Part shown: piece after piece, positions 56,126 through 63,573 of the stretch
Layout of the letters: every line of letters begins with the position of its first letter
How positions within the stretch are numbered: the first letter of the stretch is position 1
Source: Chitinophaga horti
GTDB taxonomy: Bacteria > Bacteroidota > Bacteroidia > Chitinophagales > Chitinophagaceae
Reading direction: 5' to 3'
Length of the DNA: 64,000 nucleotides
Assembly (NCBI RefSeq): GCF_022867795.2
Contig: NZ_CP107006.1
Span: 2,294,001-2,358,000 of the forward strand
Made by a program: the position numbers and the translations under genes
The notes under the pieces: generated by a model
Database searches by the model: none
Seen by the model: the letters and a program-made list of their open reading frames with translations, nothing else
Told to the model about the DNA's origin: nothing

Positions 56126-56296
56126 AGGTGTATTCTGGTCTGTTAGTCCGGTTTTTCCGGTGGCAAATCTAATAAAAAAAAGATGTTGCGTGTAACTGCC
56201 TCTATGACAGTTTAGCCCAGACAAAACAACCTGATTTCGTAATTTTAGGGAACGGCACCTAATTTGGACAGGCAACCTTGTTTTAAACGACTCATT

Positions 56297-57184
56297 ATGG
56301 CATTTATAGATTACTATACCGTGTTGGGGATCGATAAAAAAGCGAGTACAGACGACATCAAAAAGGCATATCGTAAACTGGCCAGGAAGTATCACCCCGA
56401 CCTTAATCCCGACGACAAAGAAGCGAAACTGAAATTTCAGCAGATCAATGAAGCACACGAAGTGCTGAGCGATGCGGAGAAGCGCAAAAAATATGATGCT
56501 TACGGCGAGCATTGGAAAAATGCCGACCAGTTCGAACAGGCACGGCAGCAACAAGGTGCCGGCCAACAATATAGCTATAGTGGCGGCGATGGAGGATTTG
56601 ATTTCGGGGAAAGCGGTTTCTCTGACTTTTTCGAATCCCTATTCGGCAACACCGGCGGCCGGCGCAGTGCAGGCAAGTTCCGTGGCGGGGACGCGCAGGG
56701 GGAAGTACGGCTGACACTACGCGAAGCAGCCGAAACACATCAACGCACGTTCACCATCAACAACCAACAAGTACGCATTACCATACACGCCGGTGTAGCC
56801 ACCGGACAAAAGATCAAACTGAAAGGTCATGGTTCCGCAGGTGCGAATGGTGGTCCTGCGGGTGATTTATACATCACCTTTATCATAGAGGAAGATCCGG
56901 TATTTAAACGCGTGGAAAATGACCTTTACGCCCATGTAGACCTGCCGCTGTACACGGCTGTTCTCGGCGGGGAGGTGACCATCGACACGCTGAACGGTAA
57001 GATCAAACTGAAAGTAGTACCCGAAACACAGAATGGTGCAAAGGTGCGTCTCAAAGGAAAAGGCTTTCCCGTTTACCGGCAAGAGGGCCAGTTTGGCGAT
57101 CTTTACATCACCTGGAACATACAATTACCGAAGAACCTGACGGAGGAGCAGAAGGCGCTTTTCCGCCAATTAGCAGCATCTTAA
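56297..57184 (+). CDS. cbpA: DnaJ-type co-chaperone (CbpA-like)
   Basis: A 295-residue type II/III J-protein. The J-domain is at about 1-68 with HPD in [10 protein letters not shown]; a Gly/Phe-rich linker follows (about 85-125), then a C-terminal substrate-binding and dimerisation domain ([19 protein letters not shown]). It lacks the DnaJ zinc-finger Cys repeats, as CbpA does. It stimulates DnaK. The next gene, 9 bp downstream, is its modulator CbpM, which supports the name. The ATG at 56297 is preferred to 56264 because the J-domain begins there. Confidence 0.94.
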
Positions 57185-57193
57185 TTTCACATT

Positions 57194-57493
57194 ATGCAAA
57201 CTGATATGATTACGGTAAAGGAATACTGTGTTCAATACCACACAGAGCCGGGATTTATTGATGCCCTGGAGCAAAATGGGCTCATCTCCCTTGTGATCGT
57301 GGAAACGGAGCCCTGCATCCACTACGACGAGCTACACAACCTTGAAACGTATAGCCGCTGGTATTACGACATGAACATCAACGTAGAAGGGATTGACGCA
57401 CTCATCAATGTATTGAATAAAATGAAACGGCTGCAACGGCAGGTGGACCTGCTGCGCAGCCGTTTAAGCGTATACGAACAGGATCAATTATAA
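57194..57493 (+). CDS. cbpM: chaperone modulator CbpM
   Basis: A 99-residue MerR-HTH-like CbpM family protein (ITVKEYCVQYHTEPGFIDALEQNGLI start, YSRWYYDMNINVEGIDALINVLNKMKRLQ in the helical part). It binds the J-domain of CbpA and limits it. It is coupled to cbpA and overlaps the convergent dehydrogenase gene by 10 bp. Confidence 0.92.
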   Translation: MQTDMITVKEYCVQYHTEPGFIDALEQNGLISLVIVETEPCIHYDELHNLETYSRWYYDMNINVEGIDALINVLNKMKRLQRQVDLLRSRLSVYEQDQL

Positions 57494-59006: not shown

Positions 59007-59237
59007 ATGTCCCAGTTCACCATCTCGCAACATAACGAAACAATTTCCGTAACCCAGGAAGCGAAAGACTCCTTCATTGTAGAAATGCCGGACAAAACAT
59101 TGTATCTGATCGTGAGACAGGACAACGAAGGCGCTAATCACTGGTTCGAGGAAGGAAGCGACAATGAGACCGAAGAAACGAAATCCATCGGTATTGCGAT
59201 AGAAACAGCGCTCGCAGAAAGCGGCGCGACTCACTAA
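59007..59237 (+). CDS. small acidic hypothetical protein (76 aa)
   Basis: A 76-residue acidic protein, mostly beta (FTISQHNETISVTQEAKDSFIVEMPDKTLYLIVRQD). No family is recognised and there is no signal peptide. It has a strong terminator 20 bp downstream and is likely monocistronic. Confidence 0.65.
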   Translation: MSQFTISQHNETISVTQEAKDSFIVEMPDKTLYLIVRQDNEGANHWFEEGSDNETEETKSIGIAIETALAESGATH

Positions 59238-59307: not shown

Positions 59308-59333
59308 AAGGCGCCAGTACTAACCGGCGCCTT
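59308..59333 (-). terminator. intrinsic terminator after the histone-like fusion gene
   Basis: AAGGCGCC (59308-59315) pairs with GGCGCCTT (59326-59333) around a 10-nt loop. On the minus strand a TTGATTT follows. Two convergent terminators therefore lie back to back here. Confidence 0.75.
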
Positions 59334-59339
59334 CTTACA

Positions 59340-60314
59340 TTATTTTTCTTCTTCGTCCTCGTCATCATCATCATCGTCGTCGTCTTCTTCGTCCTCGTCA
59401 TCTTCCTCATCTTCATCTTCAACGTCTTCTTCGTCCTCGTCATCATCGTCTTCCTCCTCGTCCTCATCCTCATCGGCGGTATCGCCCTCGCTCTCCTGTT
59501 TCGCCTGCCAGTTGATGCTACCTTCAGCGATTTCTGTGAGCAGCTCGTCTGTAGTTTTCTCCTCTTCCAGGATTTCTGCGAGGATCTCTGCGGCTTCGTC
59601 CTGACCCATTACTTTCGCCAGGGTAACCAGGCTGCCATAAGTGGCGATTTCATAGTGCTCTACTTTTTGGGCAGCCACGATAATGCCAGCGTCACGTGTG
59701 TTTGAGCCTTTCTGCGTTTCTTCTACGATGCTTTGAGCTTCTTTGATCAGTCCTTCCATTGCGTCGCACTTCATTGCCTGAGGCTTTTTGCCCAGCAGTT
59801 CAAACACCTGCTCCAGGCGGGTGGCCTGACTTTGCGTTTGAGCAGTATGCTCCTGGATGGCGGTTTTCAATTCCTGGCTGGTGGCTTCTTTCTGCAGTTT
59901 AGGCAGTGCTTTCGCCAGGTTTTTCTCCGCCCAATAGATATCTTTCAGCGAGTCGTGGAAGAACTTTTCCAGCTGTTCGCCTTCTGTGCCAAATTTCGCT
60001 GCTGCCTTTTTTGGAACTGCTGCTTTTTTAGCGGCGGCCTTTTTAGGAGCTACTGCCTTTCTTGCCGCTGCTTTTTTAGGCGCAGCCGCTTTTTTAGCTG
60101 CCGCTTTCTTCGGCGCTACCGCTTTTTTAGCAGCTGCCTTTTTAGGTGCAGCAGCTTTTTTAGCGGCGGCCTTTTTAGGCGCTACTGCTTTTTTAGCAGC
60201 CGCTTTTTTGGGTGTTGCTTTTTTCGCTGCAGCTTTTTTAGGCGCTACAGCCTTCTTAGCAGCTGCCTTTTTAGGCGCAGCGCTTTTACCGATTTGTTTT
60301 TTAGCTTTTGCCAT
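59340..60314 (-). CDS. tripartite protein: H1-like Lys/Ala/Pro tail, YciF/DUF892 ferritin-like domain, polyacidic tail
   Basis: A 324-residue protein with three parts. Residues 1-107 are about nine repeats of an 11-residue unit APKKAAAKKA(V/A), as in eukaryotic histone H1 tails and bacterial Hc2/HctB. Residues about 108-270 are a DUF892/YciF ferritin-like four-helix domain (LEKFFHDSLKDIYWAEKNLAKALPKL; VEHYEIATYGSLVTLAKVMG). Residues about 277-324 are an unbroken Asp/Glu tail, ending EEEK. The net charges of the two tails are opposite, so it may self-associate or switch DNA binding. YciF proteins are stress-induced; DNA binding plus an iron-binding fold suggests Dps-like protection, but that is inference. 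Confidence 0.85.
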   Translation of the reverse strand: MAKAKKQIGKSAAPKKAAAKKAVAPKKAAAKKATPKKAAAKKAVAPKKAAAKKAAAPKKAAAKKAVAPKKAAAKKAAAPKKAAARKAVAPKKAAAKKAAVPKKAAAKFGTEGEQLEKFFHDSLKDIYWAEKNLAKALPKLQKEATSQELKTAIQEHTAQTQSQATRLEQVFELLGKKPQAMKCDAMEGLIKEAQSIVEETQKGSNTRDAGIIVAAQKVEHYEIATYGSLVTLAKVMGQDEAAEILAEILEEEKTTDELLTEIAEGSINWQAKQESEGDTADEDEDEEEDDDDEDEEDVEDEDEEDDEDEEDDDDDDDDEDEEEK

Positions 60315-60577
60315 AACTTATAGAATTTAGGGTAGTGCTGATTTTTTGGGTTATGCAACCATGACACAAAGCATATGCCATTACGTAAATCCGCTGTAGC
60401 AGAGGGTTTCAAAATCAACTGCACGTATGTTGTAGAAATACTTGCCGGTATCATCACACTTTCGGCAACAGGAATTATATACATCATTCCCCGAATTGTA
60501 TAATCAACTGCTCCCTGAAAATGCGGAATTTTGAGGCAAATCAGGCGCAAAAGCCATTATCAAAAGGTTAAGTCACC

Positions 60578-60943
60578 GTGATCAAACGTTATTACATATT
60601 CATGCTTGTGTGCCTAGGGCTGCTGGTTTCCGGCGCACAGGCGGCCGTCGCTTGTAATCACGACGATCCGCCTGTACATCATGTGCTCAACGAATCTTGT
60701 TGCAGCAGTACCGACGATGCACCAGCGCCTCCCGCGCATGAATGCAGTAACGATTGTAACCACAACGGCTGCCCCTGTATGCATGCCTGCCATACCAGCC
60801 ACCAGGGCGTTACCGCCAGCTGGACTTACCAGCCTTTGCTCACCCCGCTCCCCTATGCGTGGTGTTATCCTGGCGGTCAGCTTCCCATGGTACACCTCTC
60901 CGATCGCGTACCGCCTAAAATAGGCGACCAGCAACTTGTATAG
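60578..60943 (+). CDS. secreted Cys/His-rich protein of the copper locus
   Basis: A 121-residue protein with a signal peptide (about 1-22, ending AQAA), if the GTG at 60578 is used; an ATG at 60602 would shorten the basic N-terminus. The mature part is rich in Cys and His (HDDPPVHHVLNESCCSS; HECSNDCNHNGCPCMHACH) and can bind metal. A C-terminal PPKIGD follows. It has no recognised family. Co-direction with a DUF3347 gene and a multicopper oxidase suggests a periplasmic copper sponge. The 263-bp gap upstream has no supportable gene. Confidence 0.65.
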   Translation: MIKRYYIFMLVCLGLLVSGAQAAVACNHDDPPVHHVLNESCCSSTDDAPAPPAHECSNDCNHNGCPCMHACHTSHQGVTASWTYQPLLTPLPYAWCYPGGQLPMVHLSDRVPPKIGDQQLV

Positions 60944-60982
60944 CCCATCATCCGTCTATTTATCAATCTTAAACTTTACATC

Positions 60983-61450
60983 ATGAAAAGCATTCTCGCT
61001 ATGACTATAGCTGCAGTACTCCTGTCCGCCTCTTTTTCCGTATCCGCTCAGAGCGGTGCAAATGCGCCGGGAACCGGTGCTGCCCTCCTGGAACAATACC
61101 TCGCGATTAAAGACGCCCTTGTGAAGTCGGACGCTACCGCGGCGAAAGCAGCCGCTGGTGCATTACTGAAAGTGATTACCGACAAACAGGCGACACTGCA
61201 ACCGCCCGCCGCTGCCATCGCCGGTAGCACCGACCTGGCCGTCCAACGCAAACAGTTCGCGCAGCTGGGTAATGCGCTTTATCCGATCGTTAAAACAATG
61301 CATCCGGGCAGCCCGGTGTATTATCAGCACTGTCCGATGTTTGCCAATGGTAAAGGCGGCAACTGGCTGAGCCTGGAAAAGGATATCAGGAACCCGTTCT
61401 ATGGCGCGCAAATGCTCACCTGCGGCAGCATAAAAGATACGGTCCAATGA
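60983..61450 (+). CDS. secreted DUF3347-type protein
   Basis: A 155-residue protein with a signal peptide (about 1-22, ending VSAQ). The DUF3347 pattern: YLAIKDALVKSDATAAKAAAGAL start, a helical middle, and the conserved YYQHCPMFANGKGGNWLSLEKDIRNPFYGAQMLTCG. The Cys, His and Met in that segment are likely copper ligands; similar domains occur at the end of CusB-like proteins in this phylum. Its stop overlaps the start of the oxidase gene by ATGA, showing translational coupling. Confidence 0.92.
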   Translation: MKSILAMTIAAVLLSASFSVSAQSGANAPGTGAALLEQYLAIKDALVKSDATAAKAAAGALLKVITDKQATLQPPAAAIAGSTDLAVQRKQFAQLGNALYPIVKTMHPGSPVYYQHCPMFANGKGGNWLSLEKDIRNPFYGAQMLTCGSIKDTVQ

Positions 61451-63573
61451 GCAGGATATTAATAACCGCACTGTGGCTGTTTGCCGTATTGTCGGCGACA
61501 GCGCAGCGGACGGTCACCTATCATTTGTACGTGAAGGACACCATGGTGAATTACACCGGCAAAACCCGGATGGCTTACGCCGTGAATGGCCAGATTCCCA
61601 TGCCGGCACTACACTTTACGGAGGGCGATACGGCGGAAATCTACATTCACAACGAGCTACATACCGAAACCTCCATTCACTGGCATGGGCTGATATTACC
61701 CAATAACCAGGACGGCGTGCCATACCTCACCACCGCTCCCATTAAACCACATACGGTTCATACGTACCGCTTCCCTTTGGTGCAAAATGGCACGTACTGG
61801 TACCACTCACACACCGCCCTGCAGGAACAATCGGGCATGTATGGGGCGTTCATTATTCATAAGAAGGATGCGCTGCCTGCACCGGAATACACCCTCGTAC
61901 TGAGCGACTGGACCGACATGCATCCGCACCAGGTGGAGCGCCGCCTGAAGATGGCGACCGACTGGTTCTCCATTAAAAAAGGACAAATAAAAAAGGGCGT
62001 AGTGCAGAGCTATGGCGAAGCGATTGCTGCCGGCCACTTCAAGACCAAAGTAGCCAACGAATGGAAACGGATGGAAGCCATGGACGTAAGCGATGTTTAC
62101 TACGAGCGTTTTCACGCCAATGGTCGCGATGCAGACAGCGCCACGGAGTTCCGCCCCGGGCAAAAGGTGCGGGTGCGGGTGATCAATGGCAGCTCGTCAA
62201 CCTACTTCTGGTTAACGTACGCTGGCGGCAAGATTAACGTGATCGCCAACGATGGTATGGATGTAGTGCCCGTTCCGGTGGACCGCCTGATCATTGCCAC
62301 TGCAGAAACGTACGACCTGGAACTTACGCTACCGGCCGATAGCGCTGCCGTTGAACTGCTGGCCACCGCAGAAGACCGTACCCGCAGCACTTCCCTGTGG
62401 CTGGGAAAAGGCGTTCGTCAAGCCGCGCAAACACTTCCCCCTCTAAAATATTTTGAGGGTATGAAGATGATGAACAGCATGATGAAAATGAACGGCCACC
62501 TGGACGATATGGGCATGAAAATGAGCCTTCAGCAAATGGACATGAACGCCGTGATGTACCGGGAGCCGCTGGCGGACATCAAAACGCTGAATTACGCCAT
62601 GTTACGCTCACCCGTGAAAACGACGCTGCCCGATGCGCCGGTGAAGGAGCTGAAGTTTACGCTGACGGGCAACATGAACCGCTATGTGTGGAGTATCGAC
62701 AATCGTACGGTGTCCGAGTCGGATAAGATCATCATTAAAAAAGGAGAAAACGTACGCCTCATCCTGTACAACAACTCCATGATGCGCCACCCGATGCACC
62801 TGCACGGGCACTTCTTCCGGGTACTGAACGGCCAGGGCGACTATGCACCACTCAAAAACACCCTGGACATTATGCCCATGGAAACCGACACCCTGGAGTT
62901 CGCCGCCACGGACAGCGGTGACTGGTACTTTCATTGTCACATCCTCTATCATATGATGTCGGGGATGGGGCGCATCTTTCAGTATGAAGATTCGCCGGAG
63001 AATCCCGCCCAGCAAATGAAAAAGGTGTATGCAGACGATCGTATGTTCCATTTTATGGCGCAAAACGACTTCGCCACTAACGGTAACGATGGTGAGGCGG
63101 TGCTGCAGAATACCCGCTGGAGTTTTCAGGCAGAATGGCGGCTCGGCTATCGTGATATGCACGGCTACGAGGTGGAAACCCATTTCGGGCGATACATGGG
63201 GCAAATGCAACGGTTGTTGCCCTATGTCGGCATCGACTGGCGGTACCGGAAGATGGAGCCGGGCGAAAAGGAAAAGAACCTGTTTGGCCAGGTGAGTACC
63301 AAAAATGAACGACGCGCGCTCTGTGCCGGCTTGCAATATACCTTGCCTATGCTCGCCGTACTGGATGCGCGCATCGATACAGATGGCAAAGCGCGCGTTT
63401 CACTGATGCGGGAAGACATCCGCGTGACTTCGCGGCTGCGCCTGGGTTTTATGGTGAATACCGATAAGGAATACATGGCCGGGCTGCGATACGTGCTCAC
63501 GCCGTTCATGGGCGTTTCGGCGCATTATGACAGCGACATGGGATTGGGGGCCGGCATCACTTTAAACTATTAG
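61447..63573 (+). CDS. multicopper oxidase with C-terminal CopB-like outer-membrane region
   Basis: A 708-residue protein with a signal peptide (about 1-19, ending ATAQR). Three cupredoxin domains hold all copper motifs: HWHG, WYHSH, HPMHLHGHFF and HCHILYHMMSGM. A Met-rich insert (MKMMNSMMKMNGHLDDMGMKM, about 340-360) is like that of CueO/CopA. After about residue 530 the sequence turns to amphipathic beta strands (WSFQAEWRLGYRDMHGYEVETHFGRYMG... ending VSAHYDSDMGLGAGITLNY), as in the CopB outer-membrane barrel. This would couple Cu(I) oxidation to the outer membrane. Start ATG overlaps the DUF3347 stop. Confidence 0.9.
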   Translation: MSRILITALWLFAVLSATAQRTVTYHLYVKDTMVNYTGKTRMAYAVNGQIPMPALHFTEGDTAEIYIHNELHTETSIHWHGLILPNNQDGVPYLTTAPIKPHTVHTYRFPLVQNGTYWYHSHTALQEQSGMYGAFIIHKKDALPAPEYTLVLSDWTDMHPHQVERRLKMATDWFSIKKGQIKKGVVQSYGEAIAAGHFKTKVANEWKRMEAMDVSDVYYERFHANGRDADSATEFRPGQKVRVRVINGSSSTYFWLTYAGGKINVIANDGMDVVPVPVDRLIIATAETYDLELTLPADSAAVELLATAEDRTRSTSLWLGKGVRQAAQTLPPLKYFEGMKMMNSMMKMNGHLDDMGMKMSLQQMDMNAVMYREPLADIKTLNYAMLRSPVKTTLPDAPVKELKFTLTGNMNRYVWSIDNRTVSESDKIIIKKGENVRLILYNNSMMRHPMHLHGHFFRVLNGQGDYAPLKNTLDIMPMETDTLEFAATDSGDWYFHCHILYHMMSGMGRIFQYEDSPENPAQQMKKVYADDRMFHFMAQNDFATNGNDGEAVLQNTRWSFQAEWRLGYRDMHGYEVETHFGRYMGQMQRLLPYVGIDWRYRKMEPGEKEKNLFGQVSTKNERRALCAGLQYTLPMLAVLDARIDTDGKARVSLMREDIRVTSRLRLGFMVNTDKEYMAGLRYVLTPFMGVSAHYDSDMGLGAGITLNY

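Follow-up and report, generated by a model that had tools for sequence, protein, structure and literature searches.

The protein studied here, encoded by Chitinophaga horti within a stretch of 64,000 nucleotides (hereafter the window), joins a lysine-rich tail resembling histone H1, a ferritin-like YciF domain and a polyacidic tail. It is the extreme of a continuum of such proteins in the Chitinophagaceae, within a known family, and is not unique; a mechanism in which one of its opposite tails possibly restrains the other's grip on DNA is plausible.

Gene and parts of the protein

The gene is intact (Table 1), and the open reading frame, the Pfam match and the composition of the tails confirm the preliminary description of one polypeptide in three parts. 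The N-terminal tail contains 39 Lys or Arg and 48 Ala residues and no Asp or Glu, and 45 of the 52 residues of the C-terminal tail are Asp or Glu, with one Lys or Arg; the net charge of the whole protein is -17. The motif PKKAAA occurs nine times in the N-tail, eight times as the full octapeptide PKKAAA(K/R)K, which bears out the earlier count of about nine APKKAAAKKA(V/A) repeats, and TRF assigned the array a period of 33 or 66 nt, with 74 and 78% matches. When the polyacidic tail was used as a query, no second match was found in the same genome at E <= 10.

Table 1. Positions of the gene, its parts, flanking elements and other loci discussed (window coordinates unless a locus is named).
Feature	Position	Strand	Remarks
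Open reading frame	59340..60314	(-)	324 aa, ATG start
Lys/Ala/Pro tail, histone H1-like	59994..60314	(-)	residues 1-107, net +39; predicted disordered
YciF/DUF892 (PF05974) ferritin-like five-helix domain	59499..59993	(-)	residues 108-272, net -12
Polyacidic tail	59343..59498	(-)	residues 273-324, net -44, terminal Lys; predicted disordered past residue 277
20-nt upstream block GGCATATGCTTTGTGTCATG	60360..60379	(-)	shared with ortholog L132; exactly once in the genome
GGCGCC...GGCGCC inverted repeat, then TTTT	59310..59331	(-)	after the stop codon; found by eye
Conserved 76-aa protein	59007..59237	(+)	
DnaJ-type chaperone, then small MerR-like protein	56264..57493	(+)	
Cys/His-rich small protein, DUF3347 protein, multicopper oxidase	60578..63573	(+)	
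KKAAP protein, 140 aa	L182:1330..1752	(-)	same genome
DUF6496 protein, 161 aa	L181:1486..1971	(-)	same genome

An assembly artefact or a frameshift is very unlikely, and was rejected as the source of the lysine-rich or acidic part, because the syntenic ortholog of a sister species (L132, genome G015), which lies in the same gene neighbourhood, has all three parts (tail charges +42/-46), and because codon choice varies among the repeats. Compared pairwise, the eight octapeptides differ on average at 4.3 of 24 nt, with one identical pair among 28, and the N-tail array is more than a simple DNA repeat, its units having diverged in codons. Between the window protein and L132, 49 of the 59 changed codons in the aligned part of the N-tail are synonymous. 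In the C-tail the 52 aligned codons include 24 nonsynonymous and 14 synonymous changes, besides gaps; residue-by-residue constraint is weaker there, and acidity is retained.

The ferritin-like core

Residues 115-271 matched PF05974 (DUF892) with an E-value of 3.8e-56 and 190 bits, against a gathering cut-off of 23.7, over model positions 2-158 of 159. An AlphaFold2 model based on 56 sequences predicted helices at residues 110-143, 147-173, 184-199, 205-235 and 239-277, with pLDDT values, in ten-residue blocks, of 94-98 for residues 111-260, 81 for residues 261-270 and 51-70 in the structureless tails. The structure prediction suggested in the preliminary description thus returned a confident YciF bundle flanked by disordered tails; the bundle fold of the "four-helix domain" stood, but not its helix count: four long helices and a short fifth one were modelled. 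Foldseek found E. coli YciF (2gs4; E 7.8e-10, identity 48%), and VIA-align superposed the two with Z 25.0 and rmsd 1.1 over 153 residues. Klebsiella 7tmv also reached Z 25, followed after the YciF proteins by MrgA and Dps chains at Z 16.4-18.2.

The window protein retains E130, H156, E168, E192, D208, E219, H220, E222, E252 and D256, each common to 240-243 of 243 relatives, a count that leaves out the window protein itself and L132. The check for di-iron ligands thus found the family's conserved Glu, His and Asp residues kept, and these ten positions are candidate metal ligands. Two positions of helix 2, Gln159 and Gln163, are Gln in 100 and 75 of the 243 relatives, respectively, with Glu and His in many others. 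Three DUF892 proteins expressed in E. coli were reported to lower free iron, and iron sequestration was described (PMC5126674); E. coli YciF has been likened to rubrerythrin, as quoted in PMC6727835, where proteins of the YciF type are treated as stress proteins of unsettled function.

Comparison with known systems

The domain is that of the YciF/DUF892 proteins (2gs4 and 7tmv; identity 47-51%, rmsd 1.1-1.7). However, the six solved YciF relatives found by sequence are chains of 166-173 residues, approximately the bare domain, to which the window protein adds charged tails of 107 and 52 residues. With Dps the window protein shares a ferritin-like bundle and a flexible tail, and the composition and predicted disorder of its N-tail would fit a lysine-rich tail of the Dps type. 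It differs from Dps in its low identity to Dps and Dps-like chains (7-16%), in its Pfam family, in the length of its 107-residue tail and in the added polyacidic C-tail; Dps forms a dodecameric shell with ferroxidase sites between subunits, whereas YciF is a dimer. DUF892 was the sole Pfam family listed for the window protein at E <= 0.001, so there was no match at that level to PF00210, the Dps/ferritin sequence family. DNA binding through the tail has been reported for the Dps of Deinococcus grandis (PMC13319912).

The lysine/alanine/proline repeat tail is shared with Hc2, AlgP and PhaF, but in the window protein a ferritin-like domain and an acidic tail follow it on the same chain. Both curated H1-like models scored below their cut-offs (21.5 bits against 80 and 11.9 against 135), an NCBIfam H1-like model giving E 2.2e-4. 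The D/E tail of HMGB1, the acidic C-terminus of Hfq and the histone H1/prothymosin-alpha pair all provide a disordered acidic chain that neutralizes a cationic nucleic-acid binder, and a long D/E tail (-44) and a cationic region (+39), putatively nucleic-acid binding, likewise occur together in the window protein. Here, however, both polyelectrolytes sit at opposite ends of one bacterial ferritin-like chain, and no homology is claimed.

Distribution of the architecture

To survey the family without regard to tails, tail-blind samples were picked by a Pfam search for the DUF892 domain, which was present in 49 of 79 relatives, 101 of 195 genomes of the family and 99 of 395 genomes of the phylum (89 of these 99 passing the curated cut-off). 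In the same-genus set, 4 of 67 proteins (68 with L148, which belongs to another family) carry a C-tail charge of net -9 or stronger; these are the window protein, L132, L136 and L138, and all four tails are in fact -29 or stronger. Among the matches listed for the family, C-tails of net -9 or stronger were found in 15 of 125 proteins, the window protein included, and N-tails of net positive charge in 111. This set covers matches down to G190:C1:2167335, without G185:C11, G175:C5:91733 and G172:C793 (cut by a contig end), and includes five same-genus proteins, the window protein among them. In 15 members from the phylum, mostly longer ones (14 outside the family, one inside), the strongest acidic tail was -8 (L290). 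The window protein has the longest DUF892 open frame (325) among the phylum and family matches listed; in the genus search three open frames exceed it (359, 349 and 341).

The suggested survey of the architecture thus recovered the same order of parts with milder tails in relatives, and the graded versions across the family rule out a unique fusion. The earlier view that the order is unusual was upheld for the size of the tails only, as the order itself recurs with smaller tails in other Chitinophagaceae. In a search of the open-licence literature, no title or abstract describing the fusion was found. Three of the 15 phylum members, L286, L288 and L289 (genomes G834 and G716), which belong to another family of the class, combine this core with another kind of tail: their C-tails of 32-100 residues are rich in Gly, Ser, Asn and His, and their N-tails have no net charge.

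The host genome (6.3 Mb, one contig) holds three DUF892 matches: the window gene, L001 and L003. L001 has a short N-tail (eight Lys or Arg, no Asp or Glu) and a C-tail of two residues, about the length found in many other Chitinophaga homologs; L003 has five and four residues outside the domain. In a tree of the domain, the window protein and L132 fall in a three-tip clade (support 0.93), together with L176 of another genus by tip order, nested in a clade of 53 tips (support 0.73), and by tip order they stand apart from L001 and most other Chitinophaga homologs. This placement, and the fact that 30 of 32 comparable genomes, compared by eye, lack the gene next to the conserved 76-aa protein (Table 1), suggest that the window gene was acquired, or is an old paralog retained in a few species.

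Coupling of the two tail charges

Most homologs have a basic tail, so the co-occurrence of the two tails by itself says little, and basic tails also occur without acidic ones (L067, +16/-1; L105, +15/0). Among the matches listed for the family, the charges of the two tails were correlated (Spearman 0.48, n=125, p 2e-8; 0.40 under an alternative, nearest-ATG rule for start codons). In the genus set there was no rank correlation (Spearman 0.11, p 0.38, n=68 including the one protein of another family); N-tails there were +21 to +42 in the four acidic-tailed proteins, whereas the remaining 63 had a median of +5; these four, however, are two pairs of similar proteins and therefore represent about two events. 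With correction for the tree, contrasts over 188 tail-blind proteins gave r 0.38 and 0.45, values attained in 25 and 22 of 500 shuffles, respectively.

A larger set of 245 proteins was partly chosen by likeness to the full protein, which could favour long tails: 110 of its loci (30 + 80) came from a full-protein search and were mostly the best-scoring among the matches listed, so the set is not tail-blind. In it, Spearman between the tail charges was 0.60 among 38 acid-tailed proteins, tree-corrected r was 0.29 for raw values (6 of 500 shuffles), 0.18 for logarithms (25 of 500) and 0.08 for lengths, and the 10 tips with a C-tail of net -20 or stronger required 8 changes on the tree. Homolog starts were set at the first in-frame ATG, which makes some N-tails too long (L028 and L082 look overextended); results changed little under the nearest-ATG rule. 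In the family sample the two charges are clearly coupled, but the evolutionary independence of this coupling is only moderately supported. As proof of masking the correlation was rejected: when it was recomputed on tail-blind samples it held in the family, whereas the genus showed no rank correlation.

Genome neighbourhood

Upstream of the gene, the block GGCATATGCTTTGTGTCATG is a possible promoter or operator; it showed no clear regulon, the genome containing a single exact match and one further site with three mismatches. A -7-type search for a Bacteroidota promoter upstream of the gene found none, and a sigma-70 scan gave two promoter-like sites, both upstream on the (-) strand, against a mean of 1.0 in shuffles. 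The GGCGCC inverted repeat is a possible terminator, and was absent from an inverted-repeat scan with a loop limit of 8. Eight neighbouring ORFs were scanned with Pfam; a dehydrogenase, DnaJ, MerR, DUF3347 and a multicopper oxidase were recognized, and three had no match.

The 76-aa neighbour, which has no Pfam match, is conserved in 40 of 60 same-genus genomes. It does not form a conserved pair with the window gene: the two were side by side only in G000 and G015 among 32 genomes searched for both (those of the 40 also searched for DUF892), compared by eye, although contig breaks in drafts can hide pairs. The DnaJ-type and MerR-like proteins are a CbpA/CbpM-like pair; CbpA of E. coli is itself a DNA-binding stress protein. 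The three genes on the other side, adjoining the window gene, are possibly a copper-handling cluster, and their multicopper oxidase carries a C-terminal stretch past residue 514 without a Pfam match. Elsewhere in the same genome, L182 encodes an almost pure KKAAP protein beside the gene for ribosomal protein L27, falling just short of the Pfam HC2 cut-off (39.2 of 40 bits), and L181 combines a DUF6496 domain, a Pfam family of unknown function, with an H1-like Lys/Ala tail.

Proposed function and alternatives

The best explanation, with about an even chance of being right, is a ferritin-like stress protein that probably resembles Dps in its action and carries its own brake. Iron or peroxide would be handled by the folded YciF domain, and the H1-like tail would anchor the protein on DNA or on some other polyanion such as RNA or polyphosphate. 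By folding back onto its own chain or onto a partner subunit, the acidic tail would compete with DNA for the cationic tail, so that binding would be weaker and faster and unregulated aggregation would be prevented; the brake could come off at high DNA concentration or through salt, proteolysis or acetylation. The literature reports DNA binding by KPAA-repeat peptides and by a piece of the AlgP tail (PMC9239181), picomolar association of histone H1.0 (+53) with prothymosin-alpha (-44), whose charges are near the +39/-44 of the window tails (PMC7661507), and restraint of HMGB1 (PMC10250230) and bacterial Hfq (PMC5606850) by acidic tails. Such autoinhibition appears physically plausible and in keeping with the co-scaling of tails in the family, although the whole protein, at net -17, could instead simply be held off DNA. 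In a crude Monte Carlo model (residues 1-109 and 278-324, the bundle as a sphere, anchors an assumed 45 A apart), 35-74% of the Lys and Arg of the N-tail lay near the acidic tail at 0.1-0.3 M salt, against 0.1-0.2% with a neutral tail. The model illustrates electrostatics only, and it had not converged, since the seeds (two each) disagreed at 0.15 M (0.39 against 0.74). It replaced an earlier Langevin simulation from an extended start, which was too short and gave zero in all five runs.

A scaffold for polyphosphate or condensates is rather unlikely, yet compatible with the Dps-like explanation and not exclusive of it. The lysine tail would then bind polyphosphate or RNA, and opposite tails of different molecules would coacervate into an iron-storing granule, the protein not being a nucleoid protein. 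AlgP, whose tail is similar in Lys, Ala and Pro, is reported to sit on polyphosphate granules and space them (PMC9239181), and the strong association of oppositely charged disordered chains (PMC7661507) would serve such a granule equally; however, no polyphosphate enzyme was found among the eight neighbouring ORFs scanned with Pfam.

It is unlikely, too, that the D/E tail serves chiefly as an arm that binds iron or nucleates mineral and feeds the core, with the lysine tail keeping the protein near DNA and the charge balance a by-product of solubility. Acidic clusters can bind iron, and the drift of C-tail residues with charge kept would suit such an arm, as would the reported link of DUF892 cores to iron (PMC5126674). 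Against this, the C-tails of about two residues in L001 and many Chitinophaga homologs mean that not every such core needs an acidic tail.

That both tails are simple-repeat expansions of little function seems improbable: they are of low complexity and variable in length across the family, but the N-tail changes are mostly synonymous, its repeat units are synonymously diversified, and strong acidic tails require 8 changes for 10 tips on the tree and, in the family, accompany larger basic tails. Slightly less probable still is action in trans, with the acidic tail serving L181 and L182, the separate H1-like proteins encoded in the same genome, in the manner of a histone chaperone, because the protein's own basic tail would be present at far higher local concentration.

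Significance

A bolder form of the Dps-like explanation, which we put forward only tentatively and consider more probably wrong than right, is that tails have grown repeatedly around a ferritin-like core in the Chitinophagaceae, each a linker-histone-like tail with its own prothymosin-like chaperone, their charges co-evolving. If true, the protein would be a self-chaperoned bacterial 'histone' that carries iron detoxification to DNA and then releases it. Between the bare YciF domain and strong opposite tails lies a natural series, which seems to have arisen several times and opens two questions to testing. One is whether proteins of the YciF type act at DNA; the other is whether bacteria tune histone-like tails by acidic tails in cis, in the way known from HMGB1 or from the pair of H1 and prothymosin-alpha in eukaryotes.
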